From: Phytoactinopolyspora limicola
GTDB lineage: Bacteria > Actinomycetota > Actinomycetes > Jiangellales > Jiangellaceae
Direction of reading: 5' to 3'
Length of the DNA stretch: 64,000 nucleotides
Assembly (NCBI RefSeq): GCF_011320225.1
Contig: NZ_JAAOEN010000003.1
Span: forward strand, 248,001-312,000
A program made the position numbers and the translations under genes. Within the stretch, counting starts at the first letter, position 1; every line of letters starts with the position of its first letter. Shown here one piece after another: positions 29,275 through 47,449 of the stretch. The notes beneath the pieces were generated by a model that saw nothing but the letters and a program-made list of their open reading frames with translations, was not told the DNA's origin and searched no databases.

Positions 29275-30417
29275 TCACCGGCCCGGCAAGCGGAATCGGG
29301 GACCGTCAGCCGGCGACCCGGCCGCCATCACCATCTCGTACACGGCCAGCACTTCGGTGGCGATCTCCGACCAGTCGTAGCGGCGCACCGCCACCGACGC
29401 GGCATCCCGGTACCGTTGCCGCCGCTGAGGGTCGCCCAGCAGCGCGATGGCTTCGGTGGCGAGGCTCTCGGAGTCACCGATCGGCACGAGCGCACCCAGC
29501 CGGCCGTCGTCGAGCACGGCCCGGAACGCGACCAGGTCGCTGGCGACGACGGGAGCTCCGGCGGCCATGGCTTCGACGATCACGATGCCGAACGACTCTC
29601 CGCCGGTGTGTGGTGCGATGTACACGTCGCTGCTAGCGAGCATGGCGGCTTTGTCGTCGTCGCTGATGGCGCCGAGGAAGGTCACGGCGTCGCGGTGCTC
29701 GGCGGGGATGCTGCGGCGGGCTTCGTCGACATCGCCGGGGCCGGCCACGAGCAGCCGGGCGTCCGGATGCGCGGTGTGGATGGCGGGCCAGGCTCCCAGG
29801 AGCACCGGCAGTCCCTTGCGGGGTTCGTCGACCCGGCCGAGGAAGCTGAACGTGCCACCGGCCCCCTGCCACTCCGGCCGTGGTGGCGCCGTGAAGCGGT
29901 CGACGTAGAGGCCGTTGGGGATCAGGACGGCATCGCCGCCGAGGTGTTGGACGATGGTGCGGCGGGCCTCGTCGGAGACGGCGATGCGGGCGCTGAGCTT
30001 CTCGAGAGTGGATTGGAGAATGCCGTGGCCGGCGCTGAGCACCCGGGAACGTTTGGAACCCTGGTGGAAGGTGGCCACGGCCGGCACGTCGGCCAACCAC
30101 GTGGCGAGCAGGCCGAGGCTGAGGGTTTCGGGTTCGTGGATGTGCACGAGGTCGAACTTGCCGTCGCTGAGCCACCGGCGTACCCGCGCCGCCGCGCGGG
30201 GGCCGAACAAAACACGCGCGACCGAGCCGTTGTACGGGATCGAAACCGGACGTCCGGCTTTGACGACATACGGCGGGACGTCGTCGTCCTCTCCCCCGGG
30301 TGCCAGCACCGACACGGTGTGGCCACGGGCCATCAGCTCCTCGCTGAAGTCGCGGATGTGGAATTGCACCCCACCGGGGACACCCCACGAGTAGGGGCAG
30401 ACGATCCCGATATTCAC
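29275..30417 (-). CDS. pimA: phosphatidylinositol alpha-mannosyltransferase PimA
   Basis: PimA transfers the first mannose from GDP-mannose to phosphatidylinositol on the cytoplasmic face of the membrane, starting PIM/lipomannan synthesis. The 380-residue GT-B enzyme begins VNIGIVCPYSWGVPGGVQFHIRDF and shows GT4 features: HIHEPETLSLGLLATW, FLGRVDEPRKGLPVLLGAW and the EX7E block GESFGIVIVEAMAAGAPVVAS. The GTG start overlaps the patA stop by 4 nt (GTGA). The longer open frame upstream lies inside patA and was rejected. Confidence 0.93.
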   Translation of the reverse strand: MNIGIVCPYSWGVPGGVQFHIRDFSEELMARGHTVSVLAPGGEDDDVPPYVVKAGRPVSIPYNGSVARVLFGPRAAARVRRWLSDGKFDLVHIHEPETLSLGLLATWLADVPAVATFHQGSKRSRVLSAGHGILQSTLEKLSARIAVSDEARRTIVQHLGGDAVLIPNGLYVDRFTAPPRPEWQGAGGTFSFLGRVDEPRKGLPVLLGAWPAIHTAHPDARLLVAGPGDVDEARRSIPAEHRDAVTFLGAISDDDKAAMLASSDVYIAPHTGGESFGIVIVEAMAAGAPVVASDLVAFRAVLDDGRLGALVPIGDSESLATEAIALLGDPQRRQRYRDAASVAVRRYDWSEIATEVLAVYEMVMAAGSPADGPRFRLPGR

Positions 30418-31355
30418 GGCGCGGCCAACGTGCTGCCGGGGTGTTCGGATCCCCGGGCGGCCTCGATGTCGGATTGAAAGATGCGTTGGGCCATATGCCA
30501 GTCCTCCGGATGCTGGCGGATGCCTACCTCGAAGGCATCCGCGACACGCTGCGTCATGGTAGCGATGCGGTCGGCGCGGCGTGCTGGAATCTCGATAGGT
30601 TCGTGGAACCACAACACGACGCCGTGGTTCGGCTCCCGGCCTTCGTAGGCGAGAGTGGTAGGGAGTAGGGTCGCACCGGTCCGCAGCGCGAGCATGGCCG
30701 GACCGGCCGGCATACTCACCGGTTCGCCGAAGAACGTCACCGGTACGCCGCGCCGGGACAGGTCACGTTCGGCCGGCAGGCAGACCGCTCCCCCTGACTC
30801 CAGATGGTTGGTGAGCCGGCTCATCACGTTCTCGGCGCCGGTGAGCGGCAGGATGGTCATACCCAATTGTTCACGGTAGGCGAGGAACCGCTCGAACAGC
30901 TTCTCCGGACGCAGCCGTTCGGCGACACTGGCCACCGGTGCGCCGGTCAGGCACGACCATGCTCCGGCGTGGTCCCAGTTCGCCATGTGCGGCAACGCGA
31001 CCACCACTCCTCGCCCCTCGTCGAGCGGTGCTCGGAACCGCTCCTCATGGAGGGTACGTACCCGGCCGACGATGCGCTCATGCGTCCAGTCACCGATGCG
31101 GAACGCATCACACCAGTAGCGCATGTAGGAACGCAGCGCCGCCCGGCTGAGCGCACGCAGCTCGGCGGGGTCGGCGTCGGGTACCACCCGGGCCAGGTTG
31201 CGTTCGAAGCCGCGAGCGGCGCCGCCGCGGCGCCGCCAGGCAACGTCGGCCAGGGTACGGAACAGTCCATAGGCGGCCGGCTCGGGTAGCGCCCGCACGG
31301 CCGCCCACCCTGCGCTGTACAGCGCGAGCCGGCGCCGGTCGGCGAAGCGCGTCAT
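30414..31355 (-). CDS. patA: phosphatidylinositol mannoside acyltransferase
   Basis: The 313-residue protein is an LpxL/HtrB-like acyltransferase. Its HX4D catalytic motif is ALPHMANWDHAG, followed by ERDLSRRGVPVTFFGEPVSMPAG and a C-terminal HPEDWHMAQRIF motif typical of the family. Placed between pgsA and pimA with 4-nt overlaps on both sides, it should acylate the mannose of PIM (PatA role). Membrane association is expected to be peripheral. The ATG at 31355 overlaps the pgsA stop (ATGA). Confidence 0.9.
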   Translation of the reverse strand: MTRFADRRRLALYSAGWAAVRALPEPAAYGLFRTLADVAWRRRGGAARGFERNLARVVPDADPAELRALSRAALRSYMRYWCDAFRIGDWTHERIVGRVRTLHEERFRAPLDEGRGVVVALPHMANWDHAGAWSCLTGAPVASVAERLRPEKLFERFLAYREQLGMTILPLTGAENVMSRLTNHLESGGAVCLPAERDLSRRGVPVTFFGEPVSMPAGPAMLALRTGATLLPTTLAYEGREPNHGVVLWFHEPIEIPARRADRIATMTQRVADAFEVGIRQHPEDWHMAQRIFQSDIEAARGSEHPGSTLAAP

Positions 31356-31963
31356 GCCTGGACCGCCTGCTGGTGGACGTGCCGGACGCGCTGGAACACC
31401 GTCCACGCACTGGCGGCCATGAGTAACCAGAGTACGACCTCGAGGACGACGATAGACAGGCCGAACAGCCCAACGAGGCCGGTGGTGACGAGCACCGCCA
31501 CCAGCCGGTCGGCCCGCTCGGCGATCCCGCCGGAGGCGGTATAGCCGAGGCTCTCCGCGCGCGCTCGTGCGTACGAGACCACCGCGCCCAGGGCGAGGCA
31601 GGCCATGAGCAGGGCTGTCATCCGCGTGTTGTCGCCGTCGCCGGCGAACCACAACGCGAGGCCGGCGAAGATCGCGGCGTCGCCGACCCGGTCCAACACG
31701 GAGTCGAGGAACGCTCCCCAATTGCTCTTCCGTCCGGACAGCCGGGCCATGATGCCGTCGATGTTGTCGGCGAAGACGAACGCGGTGATGACCAGCGTGC
31801 CCACCAGGAACTCACCACGTGGGTAGAACGCCAGCGCACCAACGGTGACGCCGGCGGTACCCACGATGGTGACGACGTCGGGGCTGATCCGCGCCTTGGT
31901 GAAGGCCCGCGCGATGGGCGTCAGGATCCGCGTCGTGTAGACGCGCGTGTATTTGTCGAGCAT
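31352..31963 (-). CDS. pgsA: CDP-alcohol phosphatidyltransferase (phosphatidylinositol phosphate synthase)
   Basis: This integral membrane enzyme joins CDP-diacylglycerol to an inositol phosphate, giving the precursor of phosphatidylinositol. The 203-residue protein has about six membrane helices and the CDP-alcohol motif with its metal-binding aspartates (DNIDGIMARL, then GAFLDSVLDRVGD). The neighbouring patA and pimA genes favour the inositol substrate over glycerol phosphate. It is the first gene of the operon and divergent from the EF-G-like gene. Confidence 0.9.
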   Translation of the reverse strand: MLDKYTRVYTTRILTPIARAFTKARISPDVVTIVGTAGVTVGALAFYPRGEFLVGTLVITAFVFADNIDGIMARLSGRKSNWGAFLDSVLDRVGDAAIFAGLALWFAGDGDNTRMTALLMACLALGAVVSYARARAESLGYTASGGIAERADRLVAVLVTTGLVGLFGLSIVVLEVVLWLLMAASAWTVFQRVRHVHQQAVQA

Positions 31964-34362: not shown

Positions 34363-37300
34363 TCACCCACGTGTGCGTCGCAGCACCAACGATGCCCCGC
34401 CCCCGGCCAGCACGGCACTGGCCCCCGCCCCCAGCAGCCATCCCACCGGGGCGATGCCGGTATCCGGCAACCGGGGATCCTTGCCCGGCGGCGCCGGGGT
34501 CACGGTGGTGCTCGGCTCCGGGGTCACCGTCGGTTTGGGGGTGACGGTGGGTTCGGCCGTCGGTGTCGGGTCCGGTGTGGGTGTCGGGTCCGGCGGGTCC
34601 GTGGGTTCTGGTTCGGCCGGCACCGTCAGGTAGGCCCGCTCGATCGTCTGCTCCAGCGTGTTGCCGTCGTCGTCGGATAGCCGGGCCCGCAACGACACAC
34701 TGCCCGGCTGGTCGGGATGGATCACGGTGAACGATTCTCCGGTGATCGTCGCCGGTTCCCACGATGCGCCGTCGTCGTGTGACACATCGATGGTCAATTC
34801 GTCCACCTGGCCCGCCGCCGCGCCATGAACCTCGAACGGGACGGTGAGCTCCGTCCCGGCCACGGCGGTGCTGGTGAGCGACAGCTCAGGCGCGAACCGC
34901 ACCACCGACAGCGGGAACAGTTGGTTGGTGCCATCCTCCGGTGCGGCCTCGACGTCGAAGGCCCACGTCACCTGCACCCGGCTGCTCACCCTCGACACGT
35001 CCTCCGGCCGGGTGACCTCGGTGCTGAGCTCCAGCCGCCCGGCACCCGCCGGAACCTCCCAGGGCCCGACCGGAATGTCCTGGTCATACAGGGCCTCGTC
35101 GACGGTCAACACCTCGGCGCCGTCGAGCAGCACCCGGGTTCGTGCGGTGTCGTAAGCCGAATACCCGGGGTTGCCCGCGCCGTCACCGAACATCGGCACA
35201 AACGCCCACAGTTCATCGTTCGAGCGCACCACTCTCGGCGGGATCCACGGGTCCACTACCCCCAAGGCGGGACCGAACACGCCGATGTTGTAGTCCCGTG
35301 CCGACTCCCGGCCCGGCTGATGCCCACGCGGGACCTCCTGGACGAAGGTCTCTATCTGGAAGCCCTCACCCTCGGTCTGCTGAGCCGCGCCGAACGACCA
35401 CCGGCCTTCACTGCCGAGCACGTGGTTGGTCCGCTCAGCGGGGAGATCAGTGGGGACGACGATCGTCATCAAGCCGTCGTCGACGCCGGTCCAGCTGGCT
35501 ACCAGTGCTCCGGACCGCTGCGAGCTGTGGCCCAGCCGCATGGTGACCCGCTCGAACTCGTCGCCCGTCGGTTCGCGTTCCAGGCCGGCCAGAAGAGTGC
35601 CGGACTCTTGCCAGGCGGCGTGATACCACCCGGCTGAGTCACCGGGGCCGGGGGCCTCCCACCCACCGGCCAGACCGGCCCGGAGCTCGTCGGCCGAGAC
35701 CGGTGCGCCGAGTTCGGCCAGCCAGATGTTCTCCGGACCGGCGTCGAACATAATCAGGGTGTTGCCGAGGCCGTACCCGTCATGGAACACCATGTGGCCA
35801 TATACCGACCACGACGCGGTAGCACCCGGATCGGGCATCGTGATGTCGAATGGTTCGGTGTCCCGTGCGTCCAGCACGATCTCGGTATCGTCGGTGATCT
35901 CGAGTTTCGGTGTGATCATGCGGGCGAAGATGCCGTCGCCGGGTTCCAGATCCCCGACGAGGTGATAGACACCTTCCGGGACCCGCAGGGTCACCTGGCC
36001 GGTCTCATCCGGCGCGACCCAGTCCCAGAACTCGGTGTCCAACCCGTCGATCGACATACTGCCGTCGGCGGTGCGGGCTCCGTCGAAGTCGCGAAACGTC
36101 ATGGTGAGGTCGTGGTGGGGACCCTGCCGCACCACCCCGACCGCCGTGGTCACGACGACGTCGCCGCTATCGTCGGCCGCGGTGATCGTGCCGCCGTAAC
36201 CGGCGTGCGGGGCGTCCATCCTGGTGTCAGCCGTGACGGTCACCCTGGCCGCGCCGCCGGCCGGCACGATGACCTCGGTGGTGTCGACGGTGAACATACC
36301 GTCCGGGGCCGGCTCGCCGGATGGGTCGAACCCGTCGATCGACAACACCAGCTCGACCGGTTCGGCGCCGTGGTTGTGGTAGGTCAATACCTCGTCGGCT
36401 GGATCGGCCTCGTGCGGGTATTCGTGCACGCCGAAGTCGAGCGCCCCTGGTTCGGTCGTCACCGATTGATGGATCGCCCGGGCGACATCCAGCCGTCCCG
36501 ATCCTTGGCCGTAGGCCGACGTACGCCGGTCCGACTCCGCCGATGCCGTGAGCGCCGTCTTGATCTGGTCGCCGGACCAATCCGGGTGCTGCTGAGCCAG
36601 GATGGCCGCCGCTCCGGCCACGTGGGGTGTGGCCATCGAGGTGCCATCGTGTGAGACGTATCCGCTGCCGCCAGCCTGGGCGGCGGTGATGTCGACCCCC
36701 GGCGCGGTGAGATCGGGTTTCAGCGCCCCATCGGAGGTCGGCCCCCAACTGGAGAAGTCGGCCAGGACATCACTGCTGTCGACCGCCCCCACGGCCAGCG
36801 CGGACGGCGCGGCGGCCGGACTGTCGACGGACCCCACCGAGGACGGCCCCGCGTTGCCTGCCGCCACCACGAACAGGGTGCCGTGCTGTTCCGACAATGC
36901 CTCGACGGCCTCCTCGACCGGGTCCAGACCTGGTGTGTCCGGGGCGCCGAGACTCATGTTCACCACGTCGGCGCCCTGCTCCACGGCCCACTGCATGCCG
37001 GCGATCACCGTGGATTCCGACCCGAAGCCGTCGTCATCCAGAACCTTGCCGTTCAGCAGCGTCGCACCGGGGGCGACCCCGCGGTACCGATCGCCCTGAC
37101 CGGCCACCGTCGAGGCCACATGGGTGCCGTGTCCGTCCCGGTCCAGCGCGTCGTCAGCATCGGAGAAGTTGGCCGCGGCAGCGACCCGGCCGGTCAGATC
37201 GGGGTGGGTGTCGTCGATCCCGGTGTCCAGCACCGCTACCGTCGCGCCCGTTCCGTCGAGCCCCACCGCCCAGGCGGCCGGGGCGCCGACCTGCGGCACG

Positions 37301-37926
37301 CTGTCCTCCAGCGCCGCTTCGACCGGTCCGTCCAGCCACATCCTCTGGACACCGTCGGCCAACACCGTCGATGCCCCCTCGCCGCGGGTGGCGGCCGCCC
37401 AGAACGCCGCACCGGCGGCGCGGTCCACCACCGCGGCAACGCTGGACACACTCGGCAACGTTTGGGTGGCCTCCGCTCCGGCCGCCGCGGCGACCAACCG
37501 CTGCGCGGCGGAGTCCGAAGTGGTGTGCTGGACGATGACGGGCAGCGTGGCCCGGTTCGTGTCGTCGTATCCGTACTCGACCAACCGGGTCACGTTGAAT
37601 AACCGCTCGTCCAACGCGCCGCGGGCCAGCAACCCCGCGGCGTCGGCGGGCACCACGAACGTACCGCTGTCTCGCGTCGTCACCGAGACCGGTATGTGCT
37701 CCCGCCCGGCCGCCGGCAGCACGGTCCGCACCTGGCCCTGGGCGTCGGTGACCACGCGGTCACCGGTGAGCAACGTGACCGTGGTGCCCGCGTTCATCGC
37801 CAGTGCGGCCGGAACCGAACTCTCCGGCGTCGCCGCCGACAGCCACCCACCGGCGACGGCCAGCATCCCGACACTGGACGTCATCGCCACCAGAACGGTG
37901 ACCAGCCGAACCCTTCGAGTTCGCAT
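34363..37926 (-). CDS. secreted, cell-wall-anchored subtilisin-like serine protease
   Basis: A 1187-residue S8 protease. A signal peptide (MRTRRVRLVTVLVAMTSSVG...) is followed by a pro-region and the catalytic domain with triad Asp234 (AVLDTGID), His266 (DGHGTHVAS) and Ser430 (GTSMATPHVAG); Asn358 (AAGNAG) forms the oxyanion hole. Several beta-rich domains follow, then a long Thr/Pro-rich spacer. The C-terminus is a sortase signal: LPDTG (1153-1157), a hydrophobic helix and RRTRG, so the protease should be attached to the peptidoglycan. No sortase gene is visible in the window. Two small hairpins lie upstream of its start. Confidence 0.93.
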   Translation of the reverse strand: MRTRRVRLVTVLVAMTSSVGMLAVAGGWLSAATPESSVPAALAMNAGTTVTLLTGDRVVTDAQGQVRTVLPAAGREHIPVSVTTRDSGTFVVPADAAGLLARGALDERLFNVTRLVEYGYDDTNRATLPVIVQHTTSDSAAQRLVAAAAGAEATQTLPSVSSVAAVVDRAAGAAFWAAATRGEGASTVLADGVQRMWLDGPVEAALEDSVPQVGAPAAWAVGLDGTGATVAVLDTGIDDTHPDLTGRVAAAANFSDADDALDRDGHGTHVASTVAGQGDRYRGVAPGATLLNGKVLDDDGFGSESTVIAGMQWAVEQGADVVNMSLGAPDTPGLDPVEEAVEALSEQHGTLFVVAAGNAGPSSVGSVDSPAAAPSALAVGAVDSSDVLADFSSWGPTSDGALKPDLTAPGVDITAAQAGGSGYVSHDGTSMATPHVAGAAAILAQQHPDWSGDQIKTALTASAESDRRTSAYGQGSGRLDVARAIHQSVTTEPGALDFGVHEYPHEADPADEVLTYHNHGAEPVELVLSIDGFDPSGEPAPDGMFTVDTTEVIVPAGGAARVTVTADTRMDAPHAGYGGTITAADDSGDVVVTTAVGVVRQGPHHDLTMTFRDFDGARTADGSMSIDGLDTEFWDWVAPDETGQVTLRVPEGVYHLVGDLEPGDGIFARMITPKLEITDDTEIVLDARDTEPFDITMPDPGATASWSVYGHMVFHDGYGLGNTLIMFDAGPENIWLAELGAPVSADELRAGLAGGWEAPGPGDSAGWYHAAWQESGTLLAGLEREPTGDEFERVTMRLGHSSQRSGALVASWTGVDDGLMTIVVPTDLPAERTNHVLGSEGRWSFGAAQQTEGEGFQIETFVQEVPRGHQPGRESARDYNIGVFGPALGVVDPWIPPRVVRSNDELWAFVPMFGDGAGNPGYSAYDTARTRVLLDGAEVLTVDEALYDQDIPVGPWEVPAGAGRLELSTEVTRPEDVSRVSSRVQVTWAFDVEAAPEDGTNQLFPLSVVRFAPELSLTSTAVAGTELTVPFEVHGAAAGQVDELTIDVSHDDGASWEPATITGESFTVIHPDQPGSVSLRARLSDDDGNTLEQTIERAYLTVPAEPEPTDPPDPTPTPDPTPTAEPTVTPKPTVTPEPSTTVTPAPPGKDPRLPDTGIAPVGWLLGAGASAVLAGGGASLVLRRTRG

Positions 37927-38340: not shown

Positions 38341-38859
38341 TCAGCCAGTAGTGTTCGGCCACCCCGCGGCCAGCAACTCCCGGGTGTCGGCCAGCAACTG
38401 CGGCATCACCTTGGTGTCGCTGAGCACGGTCATGAAGTTCGCATCGCCGCTCCAGCGCGGCACGACGTGTTGGTGAAGGTGGGCGGAGAGCGACCCCCCG
38501 GCCACGCCGCCCAGGTTGAGGCCGACGTTGAAACCGTGGGGTGCGGACACCGCCTTCATCGCCACGATCGCATCGCGGGTCATGGCGGACAGCTCTGCCG
38601 TCTCGTCCGGGGTGAGCGACTCCAGATCACCAACGTGCCGGTAGGTGACCACCATCAGGTGACCGGGGTTGTAGGGGTGCAGGTTCAGCACCCCGTACAC
38701 GTGGGTTCCCCGCGCCACGACCAGGCCGGCGTCGTCGTCCATCGTCGGGATCGTACACAGCGGACACGTAGTGCCATCCCGCTCGGCGCCCGATCCCGAC
38801 TCGCCCCGGATATATGCCATCCGGTAGGGCGTCCACAGCCGTTCCAATCGATCGGGCAC
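38341..38859 (-). CDS. HIT-family hydrolase/phosphorylase
   Basis: The 172-residue protein carries the histidine-triad motif HLHQH (in SLSAHLHQHVVPRW) and the preceding HPYNPGHLMVVTYRHV block. Four cysteine/histidine positions near the N-terminus (CPLCTIP and later His) resemble the zinc site of Ap4A phosphorylase-type HIT proteins. It should act on dinucleoside polyphosphates or nucleotidyl conjugates, for example adenylated by-products. It follows thrS by 64 bp on the same strand, an order typical of actinobacteria (thrS-HIT-pgsA); here about 7 kb has moved in before pgsA. GTG start with GGAGGT. Confidence 0.9.
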   Translation of the reverse strand: MPDRLERLWTPYRMAYIRGESGSGAERDGTTCPLCTIPTMDDDAGLVVARGTHVYGVLNLHPYNPGHLMVVTYRHVGDLESLTPDETAELSAMTRDAIVAMKAVSAPHGFNVGLNLGGVAGGSLSAHLHQHVVPRWSGDANFMTVLSDTKVMPQLLADTRELLAAGWPNTTG

Positions 38860-38923
38860 TGTTGACTACCTCCGAACTACCTGCGACTCTCCGGTGTGGC
38901 CGGCCTCGGATATGCCGGCGTGA

Positions 38924-40921
38924 TCAGACCTGGATCCGGCGGCGAACGGCGTCGACGATCTCCGCGATGGCGTCGTCGATCGGTACACCGTTGTTCTGCG
39001 TGCCGTCCCGGTACCGGAACGAGACCGCACCCTTGGATACGTCGTCGTCGCCGGCTAGCAGCATGTAGGGCACCTTCTGGTGCTGGGCGTTGCGGATCTT
39101 CTTCTGCATGCGGTCGTCGGAGGTGTCGACCTCGACCCGGATGCCGTGTTCGCGCAGCCGCTCGGTTACCGCCCGCAGATGTTCGACGTGTTGGTCGGCG
39201 ATCGGGATACCCACCACCTGAACCGGGGCCAGCCACACCGGGAACGCCCCGGCGTAGTGCTCGACCAGGATGCCGAAGAATCGTTCGATGGAACCGAACA
39301 ATGCGCGGTGGATCATGTAGGGGCGTTGTCGGCTGCCGTCCGCCGCGGTGTACTCGACGTCCAGCCGCACCGGGGTCTGTAGATCCACCTGCAGGGTGGA
39401 CAGCTGCCAGCTGCGCCCGATGGCGTCGCTGACATGTACGTCGATCTTCGGGGCGTAGAAGGCGCCGTCGCCTTCGTTGATGGTGTAGGGCAGCTCGGCC
39501 TTCTTCAGGGCGGCTTCCAAGGCGGCCTCGGCCCGGTTCCAGTCTTCGATAGCGCCGACGTACTTCTCCGGCCGGGTAGACAACTCGGCGTGGAAGTTGG
39601 TCAGCCCGAAGTCGCGGAGTAACCCGAGGACGAACTCCAGCAGGCTGGCCAGCTCGTCGGCGAGCTGCTCCGGGGTGCAGAAGATGTGCGAATCGTCCTG
39701 GGTGAACCCCCGCGAACGCACCAGTCCGTGGACGACCCCGGACCGCTCGTACCGGTACACCATGCCGAACTCGAACAACCGCTGCGGAAGCTCACGATAC
39801 GAGCGCCCCCGGGACTTGAAGATCAACGTGTGCATCGGGCAGTTCATCGGTTTGAGGTAGTAGTCCTGCCCGGGTTTACGCACCGCGCCGTCGTCGTCGT
39901 ACTCGGCGTCAAGGTGGACCGGCGGGTAGAGATCGTCCTTGTAGAAGCCCAAATGCCCGGACTTCTCGAACAGGGCGTCTTTGGTGATGTGTGGGGTGTA
40001 GACGAACTCGTAGCCGGACTGCTCGTGGCGCTGCCGCGAGTACTCCTCCATGATCCGCCGTACCGTGGCGCCCTTCGGGTGCCAGACCGCCAGCCCGGGG
40101 CCGATCTCGTCGGGGAAACTGAACAGGTCGAGCTGGGCGCCGAGCTTGCGGTGGTCGCGCCGCTCGGCTTCGGCCAGCCGCTCCAAGTGGGCCTGGAGCG
40201 CCTCCTTGTTCTCCCATGCGGTGCCGTAGATCCGCTGCAACTGGGGGTTGTTCTCGTTGCCGCGCCAGTACGCCGCGGCCACACGCATGAGCTTGAACGC
40301 CGGGATGTGGCGGGTGGTAGGCAGGTGCGGGCCGCGACAGAGGTCTTTCCAGGCCACCTCTCCCCCACGCCGGACGTTGTCATAGATGGTGAGCTCGCCG
40401 GCGCCGACCTCCGCCGACGCGCCCTCGGCAGCGTTCTCCGCACCACTCTTGAGCCCGATGAGCTCCAACTTGTACGGCTCGCCGGCCAGTTCGGCCCGGG
40501 CGTCGTCATCCGACACCGCCCGGCGGGCGAACTGCTGGCGTTCCTTGATGATGCGCTGCATCTGCTTCTCGAGCCGTTTGAGATCCTCCGGGGTGAACGG
40601 CTCGGCGACGTCGAAGTCGTAGTAGAAGCCGTTCTCCACCGGCGGGCCGATGCCCAGCTTGGCGTCGGGGAACAGATCCTGCACCGCCTGCGCCAGGACG
40701 TGTGCGGTGGAGTGGCGCAGGATCGCCCGGCCGTCCTCGGAGTCGATCTGGACCGGCTCGACGTCGTCGCCGTCGCTGAGCACCCGGTCCAGATCCACCA
40801 GCTCGGCACCTATCCGCGCGGCGATCACCCCCGGTTCGTCGGCGAACAGCACGGCGGCCGTCGTGCCCGCATCCACCTGTCGCTCGGCTCCGGCGACGAC
40901 GATGTGGATCTTTTCGGACAC
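38924..40921 (-). CDS. thrS: threonyl-tRNA synthetase
   Basis: ThrRS charges tRNA-Thr. The 665-residue protein has the N-terminal TGS domain ([15 protein letters not shown]), the editing domain ([19 protein letters not shown] and the zinc-like Cys/His set in CRGPHL), a class II catalytic core (motif 2 region [13 protein letters not shown] and [17 protein letters not shown], zinc ligands in MNCPMH) and the C-terminal anticodon-binding domain ([18 protein letters not shown]). GTG at 40921 is chosen because AAGGAG lies 7 nt upstream; a longer in-frame start at 40953 lacks it. Confidence 0.96.
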
Positions 40922-40991
40922 GACATTGCTCCTTAGGTCGAGAAATGACATCGGTTGGCTGAACTCGCTCGATGGTACCCGTGCTGGGACG

Positions 40992-40997
40992 TACAGT
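40992..40997 (+). promoter_or_regulatory. -10 hexamer TACAGT upstream of the MreB-like gene
   Basis: TACAGT lies about 24 nt before the GTG start, followed by the strong ribosome site AAGGAGG. This is a normal leadered promoter layout in the 99-bp divergent region shared with thrS; no clear -35 was found. Confidence 0.4.
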
Positions 40998-41020
40998 AGA
41001 AACAGATAAAGGAGGTCGGT

Positions 41021-42007
41021 GTGGGCGGCTTCGGCATAGATCTCGGCACCGCCAACACGGTGGTCGGTCATCCACGCCGGGGCATCGTGTTCGACGAGCC
41101 GTCGGTTATGGTCGCACACTCCGACGACCCCACCACACCCGTCCTCGTCGGTCGCGACGCCCGGGCGCTCACCGGCCGCACCCCCGCCGGCTACCAGATG
41201 GTCCGGCCGCTCCAAGACGGAGTGGTCGTCGACCTCGAATCCGCCCGGGCGTTCATCGTCGCCATGTTGCGCAAGATCCGCCGGCGTGGCTGGCCCGGAG
41301 AGCGGCGGCGGGCCGTCATCGGGGTACCGGCCGGCGCCACCACACTCGAGTGCCGGGCGCTGCTGGAAACCGCGCACGAGGCCGGGCTGCGCAAGGTCGC
41401 CTTGCTGCCCGAACCCATCGCCGGCGCGTTCGGGTCCGGTATCGACCCCCTGGAGTCGCGGGCTCACATGGTGGTCGACATCGGTGGAGGCACGTCGGAG
41501 ATCACCGGGTTCTGTTACGGCGGCGTGCTCGCCTCTCGCACCTGCCGGGTGGCCGGCGACGAGCTGACCCGCACCCTGACCCAGTACCTGCGGGCCGAGC
41601 ACCGGCTCATGGTGGGCGACCTCACCGCGGAGACCATCAAGTCCACCGTCGACGACGTCACCGATCCACCATTGATCGTCGAGGGCCGCGATGCCGCCAC
41701 CGGCCGGGCCCGGCTGATGACCCTCGAAACCGACGAGGTCAAGGACGCGCTACGGGGCACCGTCGACGAGATCGTCCACACCCTCACCGGCTGCCTCGAG
41801 GATCTCCCAGCCCAGGCGACCAGCGACATCATGAGCAACGGGGTGCTCGCCATCGGTGGTGGTGCCCTCATGTCCGGTTTCACCCGGCTGCTCGAAGAGA
41901 CGTTCGGTTTCCCGGTCAAGCTGGCCGGCCGGCCCCTCACCTGCGTGGCCGAAGGCACCACCCGGGCGTTGAACCATCCGCCGGTGCTCGCGGCCTACGG
42001 CGGATGA
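41021..42007 (+). CDS. MreB-like actin-family protein
   Basis: The 328-residue protein has the actin/Hsp70 ATPase motifs in MreB order: phosphate-1 [12 protein letters not shown] (residues 4-15), [18 protein letters not shown], phosphate-2 [12 protein letters not shown] and the adenosine motif [17 protein letters not shown]. It lacks the substrate-binding C-terminal domain of DnaK. MreB filaments normally guide the RodA-PBP2 wall synthase; here the neighbour, convergent and 22 bp away, is a RodA-PBP fusion. There is no mreC/mreD beside it, so it may be a specialised paralogue. The GTG start is preceded by AAGGAGG. Confidence 0.9.
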
Positions 42008-42029: not shown

Positions 42030-44906
42030 TCACTCGAAGTAGTGCTGCATCAGCTCGAGAGCCACCGGGCCGGAGGTCTCCGAGCCCATCCCGCCACCAC
42101 GCACGTACGTCGTGACGACGATCTCCGGATCGTCGACGGGGGCGACCGCGGTGAACCACGAGTCCGGTGCGCTCAGCGGCGACGCCGGGTTCTCCGCCGA
42201 CCCCGTCTTGCCACCCGCCGGCACCGGGAGCACCCCGAGCTGAGCCGCCGTACCACCGGTGACGGCGGCCCGCAGGCCGTCCCGGACCGGACCGAGCTGG
42301 CCGGCGAAAGCCAGCCGCTCAGGTTCGGGCACCTCGACCGTAGCGCCGTCGCCGTGCTCGGCCGCCAGCCGGGGGGTGACCAGCTCACCGGTGGACAGAG
42401 CGGCGGTCCAGCGGGCGGCCTGCAGCGGGGTGGCCACCACGGGGCCCTGCCCGATCCCCAGGATCACGGTGGCCCCCGGATACCACGTGCCACCCGCGTT
42501 CGTCACCGACTCCGGGGTGTCCAGCACACCTGGGCTCTCCCCCGGCAGGTCGATCCCGGTACGTTCGCCGACGCCGAGCTGGCGTGCGGTGCCGATCAGC
42601 CGGTCCGCGCCGAGTTGCCAGGCGAGGTCGTAAAAATAGACGTTGTTCGACCACGCGATCGCATCGATCATGTTGTGCGGCGGCATCGGCCGCCAGTTCG
42701 CGAACGTATGGTTGCCCAACGTGTACGACGCACCGGTGGGCACCACCCGGTCCGGAGCGATAATCGCGTGTTCGGCATTCGCCGCCGCCGTCACGAGTTT
42801 GAACGTCGACCCCGGTGGCGCCGCGTGCTGGGTGGCCTTGTGTGTCAGCGGCAGCCCCGGCGCCTCCACCTCCGCCCGCAACGCCGCGACGTCGATCGGG
42901 GGTGTGTAGACGTTGTTGTTGTACCCCGGCCGCCCGGCCAGAGCGAGAATGGCACCCGTGCTGGCGTCCATCACGACGGCGGCGCCGACATCTCCGCCGC
43001 TGGTGTCCATGGCCGCGGCCAGCGACCGGTCGGCCAGCTCCTGTAGTTCCAGGTCGAGATGGAGCCGCAGATCGTCGCCCGCGACCGGATCGACCCGGCC
43101 GGCCGCGGCCACCGGCCGCCCCACCGGGTCCACGTAGACACACTGCTCACCATCGGTGCCCCGCACGACGTCGTCGTACTGTCGTTCCAGCCCGGCCCGG
43201 CCGACGGTGGCTCCGAGCGGGAGATCGGGCCAGCGCTGCATGTCCTCCGGCGTGCCGACGCCGACATACCCCAGCACCGGGCCGAGCAGCTGGCCGTACG
43301 GGTACTCACGCCGCTCCGACGGCGCGACCAAGACGCCGGGCAGTTCCTCGGCGGTGAGCCGTCCGGCGGTGTCCGGATCGACGGTGGCGACGGTGACCGT
43401 CAGCTCGTTGCCGCGCCCGTGCAACACGTCCTGTACCTCGTCGGGCGACTCGCCCACGGCGTCGGCCAGGCGCGCCACGGCGGCGTCGTCGGTGTCGGGA
43501 AACATCCCCGGCAGCACCCGGACGTCGTACTCGTCGCGGGTGATCGCCAGCGGCGTGCCCGTGCGGTCCTCGATGACACCCCGCTCGGCCGGCAGCCGGA
43601 CACACCTGGTCATCTGCTCGTCGCTGGCCGCCCGGAGCTCGTCGGCCCGGGCGTCCTGGGTGTACCAGGTGAAATACGACAACGCCAGCAGGTTGGCGGT
43701 GAGCACCACGGCACCGCTGCGGGCCCAGCGGGGTCGGCGCCGGCGGCCGGCTGGCACGTCCCACAGCGGCCAGCGGCTATCACCGTCGCGCCGCATGGCG
43801 AGGACGAGGCCGAGCGCGATCAACGTGGCCAGCGCGGCGGTACCGCCGTAGCTGAACAGCGGGATGGGCAACCCGGTGTGCGGTAACAAGCCAAGGTTGG
43901 CGGCGATCGACACGACGGTCTGGACGCCGAGCAACGCCGCTACGCCGCCGGCCAGGAGTGCACCCTCTGGTGAGCGCGACGTCCGGCTGATCACGGCAAG
44001 CCGCCACACGATCACCAGAACCGCTAGGGCCACCGCCACCCCGGCGGCGAGCCCCCAGCTGTGCACGATGCTGGCGAAGGCGAGGTCGTGTTCGGCCTCG
44101 GGCAGGTAGCTCACCCGGAGGTCGTGCAACGGCTCGCCGGCCGTGCCGGTCACCCCGCCGAGAGCGATAGCGATCTCGGCCTGAAGCATCGCCCAGCCCG
44201 AGCCGCTGGCGTCGCGGTCGCCGGAGATGAACGCCTGGATCCGGCCCAGCTGGTACGGCCGCAGCACCAGCACCGCCAATGGCAACACCGCCAACACTGC
44301 TCCGAACAGGGGCAGAAGTGGAAGCAGCGGCACCCGAGCCAGGAGGATGACGAACGTGGTGACCGCGGCGAGCACGAGGCCGGTGGAGAGGTCGGGTTGC
44401 AGCATGATGAGGCCGGCCGGGGCGGCGGCCAGGCCCAGCGCCACCAGGAATCGCCGCCGGGTGTAGCCCGGTGCCAGCATCACCGCCAGGACCACGACGA
44501 CGGCAACCTTGGCCAGCTCGGACGGCTGGAGCGTGACGAAGCCGAGATCGATCCACCGCCGCACCCCCCGGGTGCCGTCGTCACCAGCTAGCACCACGAG
44601 CAGCGCAAGCAAGGTGCCGGCATAGAGCACCCAGCCGATGCGAGACAAGAAGGCCGCACCCCAGCGGGCGAGCACCAGCATGATGACGACACCTACCGCG
44701 ACGATGGCAAGCTGGCGCAGGGCAAGGTCGGAAGCGCCGATGGTGACGAGGTTCAGGGCGCCGAGACCGGCCAGCACCGCGACCGCGGCCACGATCGCTA
44801 CGTCGACGGTGCGAGCGCTGGCCATCGGGCGGGCCCGCGCCGGCGACGACGGGGTGATACCCGGGCGGGTCAGTACCCCCCACTGGCGGCTCTGGAGGGT
44901 GGGCAT
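42030..44906 (-). CDS. SEDS glycosyltransferase fused to class B penicillin-binding protein
   Basis: A single 958-residue polypeptide combines both halves of a peptidoglycan synthase. Residues ~30-372 form a FtsW/RodA-type SEDS unit of about ten membrane helices with LQPSE (126-130) and the conserved Asp274 in LPEAEHDLAFA. Residues ~397-414 form a further membrane helix that leads into a transpeptidase with Ser700-x-x-Lys703 (PGSTFK), Ser753-Asn-Asn and Lys900-Thr-Gly. All catalytic motifs are intact. These functions are usually separate genes (rodA, pbpA). The ATG at 44906 has GAGGGTG upstream and follows the kinase-like gene by 10 nt; the longer open frame to 45104 lies inside that gene. 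Confidence 0.93.
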   Translation of the reverse strand: MPTLQSRQWGVLTRPGITPSSPARARPMASARTVDVAIVAAVAVLAGLGALNLVTIGASDLALRQLAIVAVGVVIMLVLARWGAAFLSRIGWVLYAGTLLALLVVLAGDDGTRGVRRWIDLGFVTLQPSELAKVAVVVVLAVMLAPGYTRRRFLVALGLAAAPAGLIMLQPDLSTGLVLAAVTTFVILLARVPLLPLLPLFGAVLAVLPLAVLVLRPYQLGRIQAFISGDRDASGSGWAMLQAEIAIALGGVTGTAGEPLHDLRVSYLPEAEHDLAFASIVHSWGLAAGVAVALAVLVIVWRLAVISRTSRSPEGALLAGGVAALLGVQTVVSIAANLGLLPHTGLPIPLFSYGGTAALATLIALGLVLAMRRDGDSRWPLWDVPAGRRRRPRWARSGAVVLTANLLALSYFTWYTQDARADELRAASDEQMTRCVRLPAERGVIEDRTGTPLAITRDEYDVRVLPGMFPDTDDAAVARLADAVGESPDEVQDVLHGRGNELTVTVATVDPDTAGRLTAEELPGVLVAPSERREYPYGQLLGPVLGYVGVGTPEDMQRWPDLPLGATVGRAGLERQYDDVVRGTDGEQCVYVDPVGRPVAAAGRVDPVAGDDLRLHLDLELQELADRSLAAAMDTSGGDVGAAVVMDASTGAILALAGRPGYNNNVYTPPIDVAALRAEVEAPGLPLTHKATQHAAPPGSTFKLVTAAANAEHAIIAPDRVVPTGASYTLGNHTFANWRPMPPHNMIDAIAWSNNVYFYDLAWQLGADRLIGTARQLGVGERTGIDLPGESPGVLDTPESVTNAGGTWYPGATVILGIGQGPVVATPLQAARWTAALSTGELVTPRLAAEHGDGATVEVPEPERLAFAGQLGPVRDGLRAAVTGGTAAQLGVLPVPAGGKTGSAENPASPLSAPDSWFTAVAPVDDPEIVVTTYVRGGGMGSETSGPVALELMQHYFE

Positions 44907-44916
44907 GACGACACCC

Positions 44917-46206
44917 TCAGCACGTGTCGGCGTCCTCGGGCACCAGCATCGGTCCCGACGCGGCCTGGTCTGGGCTGTCGGTGACCGCGAAGACCGCAAG
45001 CGCCGCGCCGTCCGGCAGATCGACCTGCGACAACCCCCACACCTGGGTCCATCCGGACTGCGCGGTGACGGTGACCCCACCCTGGGTGGTCGACTCGGCG
45101 GCACAACGGTCGACGATCTCGAAGCCCCACGTCACCTGGCGCGCTGATCCAGCCGGATCCAGATCGACCTCGACCCGGACCGGACACGGCGAGCCCGCCG
45201 TACACGTACCCGCGGTGGTCTCCATCCGCACACCCGACACGGCGCCGGCCGACTCCGGGGCCGGCGCCTCGGCCGTCACCGGGCCCGAAGCGGGGTCGGC
45301 GTCGCCATCGGCTTCGTCGGCGTCGTCGTCTGGTTCCGGTGGCGGCGAGACCGGCTCGATCTGCACCGGCGGCGGGTCCGAGGAGCCGAACAGCTCGTCC
45401 CAGGTGTCGCGCACCTCGTCCCAGATGCGCGGACCGGCCCACCAACCCCCGGCGACGAGTGCGGCGGCGAGAAGCAGCAGCACGAACACCTTCAATCGGC
45501 CACCGCGGCGGCGCCGGTGAAACAACATCCGGCGCGGCACCCGGCCGTCCCGCGGCAACCGCGGCCGCCGGGTCAGCGGGGTGGCAACCGACGCCGCTGT
45601 CTCCCGGGCCCTGGGTTCCTCGGCCGACGTGCCGGGGTCGAGGCTCCGGCTGGCCACCGCCAGCGCGCCGAGGCCCCTGCGCACATGCTCGACGCGGCGC
45701 GGGCTGCCGCCATCGAGCAGCTCGTCGGCGACCTCACCCACCCGCCCGGCCAACGCGGTGACGTCGCCGTTGACCTCTTCGAGGCGCATCAGCCGGGCGA
45801 CGGCGCTTTGCCGGCCCGGCCCGGCCCGCCGGGCACTAGCGATCAGCTCATCGAGCACCGCGGCCGCGGACCCGGCCGTGCCGGGGGTGTCAGCGCCGTC
45901 CCAGAGTGGATCGAAACGCACCTGGCCGGTGCCGGTAAGCCGCACGGACGCGGCGTCGATACCGACTCCGTCGGAGCCGATCCGGTGGATGGCATCGAGC
46001 CCGCCCACGAGATCCCGCGCCAGCAGTGCCGCCTGGGCGGGGGTGAGGGTGGCAACGGTCAGCAGCCGCTGCAGCGGCACCGCGAGCTCCTCGTCAGCTG
46101 GTGGTGGCCGACGCGGGATCTCCTCGGCAGGGCACCGCCGCGCCGGCCAGGCGCTGTGTAGCCGCCTGACCTGCCGTCTCAGATCTGCCGCTGTCTGGTT
46201 TGCCAT
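44917..46206 (-). CDS. single-pass membrane protein with degenerate kinase-like domain
   Basis: The 429-residue protein has a cytoplasmic N-half whose residues 43-100 (VPLQRLLTVATLTPAQAALL, then ARDLVGGLDAIHRIG and ASVRLTGTGQVRFDP) resemble the middle of a Ser/Thr kinase fold without the HRD or DFG residues. A basic stretch (RRRRGGR) precedes a membrane helix (239-257), then a Pro/Asp-rich linker (280-325) and a C-terminal extracytoplasmic beta-rich domain with four cysteines (about 335-429). It is directly upstream of, and surely cotranscribed with, the SEDS-PBP fusion. The kinase relation is inferred by eye and may be wrong. Confidence 0.7.
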   Translation of the reverse strand: MANQTAADLRRQVRRLHSAWPARRCPAEEIPRRPPPADEELAVPLQRLLTVATLTPAQAALLARDLVGGLDAIHRIGSDGVGIDAASVRLTGTGQVRFDPLWDGADTPGTAGSAAAVLDELIASARRAGPGRQSAVARLMRLEEVNGDVTALAGRVGEVADELLDGGSPRRVEHVRRGLGALAVASRSLDPGTSAEEPRARETAASVATPLTRRPRLPRDGRVPRRMLFHRRRRGGRLKVFVLLLLAAALVAGGWWAGPRIWDEVRDTWDELFGSSDPPPVQIEPVSPPPEPDDDADEADGDADPASGPVTAEAPAPESAGAVSGVRMETTAGTCTAGSPCPVRVEVDLDPAGSARQVTWGFEIVDRCAAESTTQGGVTVTAQSGWTQVWGLSQVDLPDGAALAVFAVTDSPDQAASGPMLVPEDADTC

Positions 46207-46332: not shown

Positions 46333-47238
46333 TCACGAGTCGGCGTCGGCGGCGATAGCGGCCGCGAACCGGGCCGCAGCCGCGTCGTCCTGATCGAGGA
46401 ACAGGCTCGGCTCGGTCAACTCGAGCTCCAGCAGAATAGGCGTACCGTCGGGTCCCGGGATCAGGTCGACCCGTACGTAGGTCAGTCGCGCCACGTCCGG
46501 CACCGCCGCGAGCACCTGAGCGGCCACCCGATGTTCCTCAGCCGACGGGACACGCGGGGTGATCCGCTCGTTCCGGAACAACCCGGCCACCCCGCGGTCC
46601 GGGCCGTCGAGCATCGGACCCTTCCGGATGGCATGGCTGAACTCCCCATGGAAGAACAACATGGCCGTCTCACCGAACGCGTCGACAGCGGACAGGTAGG
46701 GCTGGATCATCACCGTGGCCCCCCGGTCGAGCAACCGGGTCACATGGGACAACGCCAGTTCCCGATGCTCGGGGTTGGTGGTGGAGTACCGTCCGGTGTC
46801 GACCGAACCGGCACTGATCGCGGGTTTGATGACGTATTCGGTGGCCGCGGCCAGACCGGCCTGGGTGTCGAGGTCGGCGTCGTCACCGGGCAAGCTGATG
46901 GTGTCTCCCGGGGCGATCCACCGGGTGTGGACCACCGGCACACCGTCGTCTCGGAGGTCGCGCAGATAACGTTTGTCGGTGTTCCAGCGCACTACGTCTA
47001 CTGGGTTGACCAGCCGCGGCACGCCAGCCGCCCAGGTGAGGAACTCGTCGCGGCGGCGCGAGTAATCCCATGTGGAGCGGAGCACGGCGAGGTCGTACGA
47101 CCCCCAGTCGACTCCGGTGTCGTCCCAGACCACCGGTTCGGCGACGATGCCGCGTGTTTTCAAAGGTTCGTATAGCAGCTGATCGTCGTCGGGAAGCTCA
47201 GCCAGCTCCGCGCAGGTGACCAGCGCAATCCGCGTCAT
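46333..47238 (-). CDS. ATP-grasp domain protein (RimK/glutathione synthetase-like)
   Basis: The 301-residue protein begins MTRIALVTCAELAELPDDDQLL and holds an ATP-grasp core: YVIKPAISAGSVDTGRY (Lys and glycine-like loop), MIQPYLSAVDAFGETAMLFF, and the metal-binding acidic end RVDLIPGPDGTPILLELELTEPSLFLD. Such enzymes ligate a carboxylate to an amine via an acyl phosphate; the substrate is unknown. The ATG at 47238 has GGGGGAGG upstream. It is separated from the kinase-like gene by 126 bp with no clear signal. Confidence 0.85.
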   Translation of the reverse strand: MTRIALVTCAELAELPDDDQLLYEPLKTRGIVAEPVVWDDTGVDWGSYDLAVLRSTWDYSRRRDEFLTWAAGVPRLVNPVDVVRWNTDKRYLRDLRDDGVPVVHTRWIAPGDTISLPGDDADLDTQAGLAAATEYVIKPAISAGSVDTGRYSTTNPEHRELALSHVTRLLDRGATVMIQPYLSAVDAFGETAMLFFHGEFSHAIRKGPMLDGPDRGVAGLFRNERITPRVPSAEEHRVAAQVLAAVPDVARLTYVRVDLIPGPDGTPILLELELTEPSLFLDQDDAAAARFAAAIAADADS

Positions 47239-47449
47239 CGTGTGTCCTCCCCCGGATTCGTATGACGGCACGGACCGACGATACGCGAAGTCCGGCACAG
47301 CACCCCGTTCGCTCCCCCAACCATCGGTGCACACACCGCCACCCGACCCGCTTGATGCCAAACGGTCGCGCCGAGCACCAACCGGTCTATCGAAACACCT
47401 ACTCGCCTGGGATCATTCATCTGGTCGAACATGAGGGGTAGCCGCTGCC

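Follow-up and report, generated by a model that had tools for sequence, protein, structure and literature searches.

A predicted one-chain RodA-PBP2-like peptidoglycan synthase encoded beside a divergent MreB and a bitopic membrane protein in actinobacteria

In a 64,000-nucleotide stretch of the genome of the soil actinobacterium Phytoactinopolyspora limicola (hereafter, the window), one gene encodes a natural fusion of a RodA-like SEDS polymerase and a PBP2-type class B penicillin-binding protein (PBP). It lies between the genes for a divergent MreB and a bitopic membrane protein (hereafter, the partner), and together the three genes probably constitute an accessory, compact, Rod-type wall-synthesis module (Table 1). 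The identities of the two enzymes in the one chain are well supported, and their coupling to MreB is what we infer.

Table 1. Positions in the window of the three genes and of the domains and elements within their products
Feature	Position	Strand	Basis
RodA::PBP2-type SEDS-class B PBP fusion, 958 aa	42030..44906	-	single ATG-to-stop frame; Pfam PF01098 + PF03717 + PF00905; orthologue layout identical
SEDS polymerase domain, aa 41-373; LQPSE 126-130, catalytic Asp274	43788..44786	-	Pfam, residue numbering and conservation
Cytoplasmic linker, aa 372-397, SEDS tail to PBP N-terminus; proposed MreB docking element	43716..43793	-	alignment; docking inferred
Predicted membrane helix of PBP half, aa 393-418	43653..43730	-	AF2 model, low local confidence
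PBP dimerisation/pedestal domain, aa 438-600	43107..43595	-	Pfam PF03717
Transpeptidase domain, aa 641-954; S700TFK, SNN753, KTG900	42045..42986	-	Pfam PF00905; PBP2 fold match
Divergent MreB, 328 aa, convergent with fusion	41021..42007	+	PF06723 7e-87; conserved ATPase motifs; own clade
Bitopic membrane partner, 429 aa	44917..46206	-	ends 10 bp before fusion start; in 23/23 module loci
Transmembrane helix of partner, aa 240-258	45433..45489	-	hydropathy, all 23 members
Extracellular Ig/FN3-like beta-sandwich of partner, aa 322-429	44920..45243	-	AF2 pLDDT ~80, confident here only

An earlier, sequence-only reading had described one 958-residue frame holding an intact SEDS domain and an intact class B PBP. 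Its coordinates were exact and its key residues (LQPSE from 126, Asp274, Ser700, SNN from 753 and KTG from 900) were correctly numbered; the strand, which it had left unstated, is the minus strand, with the ATG start at 44906 and the stop at 42030. The open frame extends upstream to 45104, and orthologues use the ATG equivalent to 44906. Pfam models for SEDS (6e-64; 216.7 bits against a curated cut-off of 26.4 for PF01098), PBP_dimer (6e-28) and transpeptidase (5e-49) matched the frame with no stop between them. The PBP half has the features of a class B PBP, that is, PBP_dimer and transpeptidase domains and the SxxK, SxN and KTG motifs, without GT51.

Across 26 aligned sequences (the window gene and its orthologues), Asp274, S700xxK and K900TG were invariant. 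The Glu of LQPSE was Asp in three of the 26 fusions, as was the Asn of SxN in three. The linker, 26 aa long in the window, measured 23-27 aa in all 26 fusions by alignment, with LW and PR invariant. An extra pair of cysteines in the PBP half, Cys435 and Cys589, was also invariant in this alignment and may form a disulfide.

A homologue search returned orthologues of 48-76% identity, and all 26 sequences inspected were single frames that kept the key motifs. A stop or frameshift between the halves, or homologues encoded throughout as two genes, had been named beforehand as grounds for giving up the one-chain reading. No inspected orthologue had such a stop, and all were single open frames. An assembly error or frameshift that joined two genes is ruled out by these 26 single-frame sequences of similar length from independent assemblies, and we give next to no credence to it even though the fusion gene of one genome, G1083 (C1:5116012-5118038), was found in two overlapping frames. 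This split may reflect a frameshift, or the gene may be a pseudogene. A candidate for an independent fusion in a Blautia metagenome-assembled genome (MAG L024) was rejected, as its PBP and SEDS genes are two ORFs.

The best curated models for the fusion were pbp2_mrdA (393.6 bits) for the PBP half and, for the SEDS half, rodA_shape (232.1 bits, versus 203.8 bits for ftsW). Each remained the best model yet scored below its equivalog cut-off (455 bits for PBP2/MrdA, TIGR03423; 336.7 bits for RodA, TIGR02210), and we therefore regard the fusion, on its sequence, as RodA-PBP2-like rather than as a canonical RodA or PBP2. When solved structures were searched by sequence, the top match was PBP2 (MrdA) for the PBP half and RodA for the SEDS half. 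The PBP half fell on the PBP2 side of the PBP tree (support 80). In the SEDS tree, the SEDS half had long branches among RodA and FtsW. An FtsW-FtsI identity of the fusion was ruled out because the corresponding models scored lower and the PBP tree spoke against it. Structure prediction of the full chain, which had been proposed as a check, bore out the PBP2 fold of the PBP half (6tix, Z 49.3; 6pl5_B, Z 48.6) and left the arrangement of the halves unsettled, their mutual placement in the AF2 model (mean pLDDT 76.3, pTM 0.59) being unreliable.

Among the closest known systems is the RodA-PBP2 complex of E. coli and Thermus thermophilus, which likewise joins a SEDS polymerase to a PBP2-type class B PBP with intact motifs and supplies the top matches to the PBP half in both sequence and fold. 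That complex consists of two proteins from neighbouring genes, whereas the fusion is one chain that has a fixed LW..PR linker and, in addition, the invariant pair Cys435/Cys589. Class A PBPs also carry polymerase and transpeptidase in one chain, but with GT51 instead of SEDS. A natural fusion is plausible as an enzyme because engineered RodA-PBP2 fusions are active in E. coli (PMC10449877, PMC6207328). One of these papers mentions a natural SEDS-PBP fusion in one sentence, citing the Rhodococcus RHA1 genome (PMC10449877); as described there, it is likewise a single ORF for SEDS and PBP, and Rhodococcus has orthologues of the window gene. The fusion itself was therefore already known. As far as the literature searched goes, the new part is the three-gene module, the MreB clade and the partner: no description of the MreB, the partner, the distribution or the function of the natural fusion was found in that literature, outside which most subscription papers lie.

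A search for separate rodA/pbpA and ftsW/ftsI genes, also proposed earlier, found both pairs. Three SEDS genes and seven genes with a transpeptidase domain were counted in the host assembly. On contig C1 a SEDS gene adjoins a PBP gene, on contig C34 another SEDS gene and a PBP lie ~6 kb apart, and the remaining transpeptidases are scattered. By position, the C1 and C34 pairs were taken as RodA-PbpA and the division pair FtsW-FtsI. As these are retained, the fusion is a third, accessory synthase and no replacement.

The one-chain reading stood, with its domains, motifs and single-frame orthologues, and what it had missed was the adjoining divergent MreB and membrane partner. In the window, 22 bp separate the stop codons of MreB and the fusion. 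The GTG start of MreB has a good ribosome-binding site, AAAGGAGG, 5 nt upstream, and the third codon positions of the gene are coding-like; a long thrS frame in the window is over-extended into it. The product scored 291.7 bits with PF06723 (cut-off 27), and its actin-fold ATPase motifs align with those of canonical MreB. It fell below two NCBIfam MreB subfamily cut-offs (291.5 versus 293 bits and 275.5 versus 365.75 bits), the first of which is exceeded by a Rhodococcus orthologue (306.2 bits). In the MreB tree, the linked MreBs formed a separate clade (support 100/100, stem of ~2 changes per column), apart from the MreBs of E. coli, Listeria, Azospirillum and actinobacteria. The MreBs of carriers share 57-84% identity and have at most 43% identity to any other MreB found. 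A genome search detected no other MreB in the host, and none was found in the viral contigs searched.

The partner, fusion and MreB genes were in the same order and orientation in all 23 non-plasmid loci aligned, which span three actinobacterial families (13 Rhodococcus-type loci of family f4, seven of family f26 and three of Jiangellaceae). The stop codons of MreB and the fusion were 0-36 bp apart except in loci G001, G005 and G1003, the last with a gap of 431 bp. Between the two genes there is an apparent extra gene in G001 (L046 3900-4415; 171 aa, lipoprotein-like by eye) and in G005 (L047 8416-9039; 207 aa, VanZ-like by eye). Two fusions each were seen in G1123 and G1152.

Three Rhodococcus plasmids (L042 11917-14742; L043 11917-14742; L044 11914-14754) each have an intact fusion in a region that also encodes metal resistance; no MreB accompanies it, and the partner is either lacking or degenerate. 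The fusion may thus be able to work alone. It could then be an accessory synthase that stands alone, perhaps in reserve for times when the main PBPs are inhibited or the envelope is under stress, with MreB a mere linked neighbour. The persistence of these plasmid copies fits such a role, and so do the two separate SEDS-PBP pairs already in the genome and the homologue of D-cycloserine synthetase that adjoins the module in Jiangellaceae. This last is a DcsG-like protein just upstream of the partner (46333-47361, minus strand; 265 bits against a cut-off of 360), 66-70% conserved beside the module in G001 and G005; no counterpart was seen near the module in the two f26 loci used for comparison, nor on the Rhodococcus plasmids. 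We consider a stand-alone synthase rather unlikely, however, because all 23 non-plasmid loci of three families pair the divergent MreB with the fusion, and this MreB occurred in no sampled genome without the fusion.

The co-occurrence was perfect in each sample: three of three among 22 Jiangellaceae, five of five among 394 genomes of the class and seven of seven among 198 genomes of f26. With genomes treated as independent, the probability of such a match by chance is 6e-4, 1e-11 and 5e-13, respectively, values that relatedness makes too optimistic. MreBs of 59-84% identity were confined to the five carriers of the class sample, all others there being at or below 43%. For family f4, the link to MreB is based on the 13 loci read. 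These data bear on another possibility, that the divergent MreB has a different task, for instance to position or segregate other cargo, and is a neighbour of the fusion by chance of descent. Its distance from canonical MreB (the low identity and long stem given above) and its scores just under curated MreB cut-offs would suit such a task. We nevertheless think this very improbable, since MreB models gave 291 bits versus 67 bits for MamK or others and in three families the gene converges on that of a wall synthase. The tie of MreB and the partner to the fusion is indirect, resting on linkage and co-occurrence, and we read it as pointing to a common function in a Rod-type module.

The module is patchily distributed. 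Among the 22 Jiangellaceae genomes, the fusion was present only in G000, G001 (76% identity) and G005 (71%); it was present in 5 of 394 genomes of the class sample, 7 of 198 of family f26 and 50 of 301 (6 of 31 genera) of family f4. The phylum sample (396 genomes) held no fusion besides that of the window, and its best matches covered the PBP half only, in separate PBP2 genes. In the genus of the window, the module was present in two of five sampled genomes and is therefore dispensable for the lineage.

Two Jiangellaceae non-carriers (G012 and G007) have a canonical mreB-mreC and separate PBP2 and RodA genes, and the remaining Jiangellaceae gave no MreB, with DnaK-like matches only. The seven f26 carriers have a canonical MreB besides the divergent one, with MreC elsewhere in the genome. 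In G000, G001 and G005, MreC was not detected with the PF04085 model (best E 0.098), a search that a diverged MreC could escape.

That carriers with canonical mreB-mreC keep the module in addition, and that the module is accessory and patchy, could be explained by a developmental wall synthase, active in spores or arthrospores or, where there is a rod-coccus cycle, during its coccoid phase. Such a role would resemble that of the Streptomyces Mre complex, which builds spore walls; actinobacterial MreB acts in spore wall synthesis (PMC4255298). No developmental gene was conserved beside the module, though, and the mechanism would be the same as in an accessory Rod-type module, timing alone being different. 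We regard a developmental role as an unlikely but reasonable variant.

In phylogenetic trees, the PBP half, the SEDS half and the linked MreB each formed one fully supported clade. Jiangellaceae and f26 sequences formed their own sub-clades in all three trees; the Rhodococcus-type sequences formed their own sub-clade for both fusion halves and two groups for MreB. The simplest account would be that the two genes fused once and that the module was then inherited or transferred as a unit and lost many times.

The partner has a cytoplasmic part, one transmembrane helix, a proline-rich stretch and an outer beta-sandwich. The single helix and, in the outer domain, four invariant C-terminal cysteines were found in all 23 module loci (the partner in G429 was located by position and confirmed by the four cysteines). 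It matched nothing in Pfam, NCBIfam or the PDB by sequence and was not assigned to a known family. In a fold search, the outer domain resembled generic beta-sandwiches (best Z 9.3) with no standout, and its cytoplasmic part was considered degenerate kinase-like by eye only. The bitopic topology with an outer beta domain is RodZ-like in topology only, not in homology: RodZ too has a cytoplasmic part, one transmembrane helix, a linker and an outer beta domain, but the two share no sequence, and models of the RodZ helix-turn-helix and C-terminal domain (Pfam, NCBIfam) did not match 16 members of the partner at E up to 1.

We propose the following mechanism for the Rod-type module. The SEDS half would polymerise lipid II, and the PBP2-type half would crosslink the strand as it leaves the SEDS half. 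The divergent MreB would form filaments that orient the fusion synthase, probably by docking on the cytoplasmic linker made from the RodA tail and the PBP2 N-terminus. The linker is proposed as the docking site because E. coli MreB binds the equivalent RodA C-terminal tail and PBP2 N-terminal segment (PMC13327600). The partner may bridge the membrane from the filament to the outer face of the synthase, in a coupling role like that of RodZ or MreC, and could stand in for MreC, MreD and RodZ.

Like the canonical elongasome (MreBCD, RodA, PBP2 and RodZ), the module links MreB to a RodA-PBP2-type synthase. It differs in its divergent MreB clade, the undetected MreC in Jiangellaceae carriers, the unrelated bitopic partner and the convergent gene order. 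In E. coli, MreB and a hyperactive RodA-PBP2 form a minimal elongasome without MreCD and RodZ (PMC13327600). The proposed module would likewise do without MreC, MreD and RodZ and rely for contact on the RodA tail and the N-terminus of PBP2; the E. coli system arose from a laboratory mutation and has no extra partner, whereas the module has a natural fusion and a partner. More tentatively, and with somewhat more doubt than belief, we suggest that a deep, separate MreB lineage evolved with the one-chain RodA::PBP2 and a new membrane coupler into a self-sufficient minimal elongasome with no need of MreC, MreD or RodZ, and that it works in actinobacteria with polar growth, among them Rhodococcus, a genus whose relatives are regarded as having no MreB.

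The conserved module suggests a compact, self-contained wall-building machine and touches on two open questions, the means by which MreB is coupled to RodA-PBP2 and the set of Rod components that is indispensable. The natural fusion is a synthase of fixed 1:1 ratio, in whose cytoplasmic linker the counterparts of the two MreB-contacting elements of E. coli meet. A module of three genes, with MreC undetected in some carriers, is small enough to lend itself to reconstitution and structural studies. Its presence in Rhodococcus also means an MreB within a group of which almost no member was reported to have the mre cluster (PMC4255298).

Other genes of the window were noted in passing. A subtilase-family protease of 1187 aa is encoded at 34363-37926 (minus strand). 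Genes for ThrS and a HIT protein, together with genes some kilobases further for an acyltransferase and a GT4 glycosyltransferase (29275-31721 and 38341-41602), resemble the PIM lipid cluster of actinobacteria.
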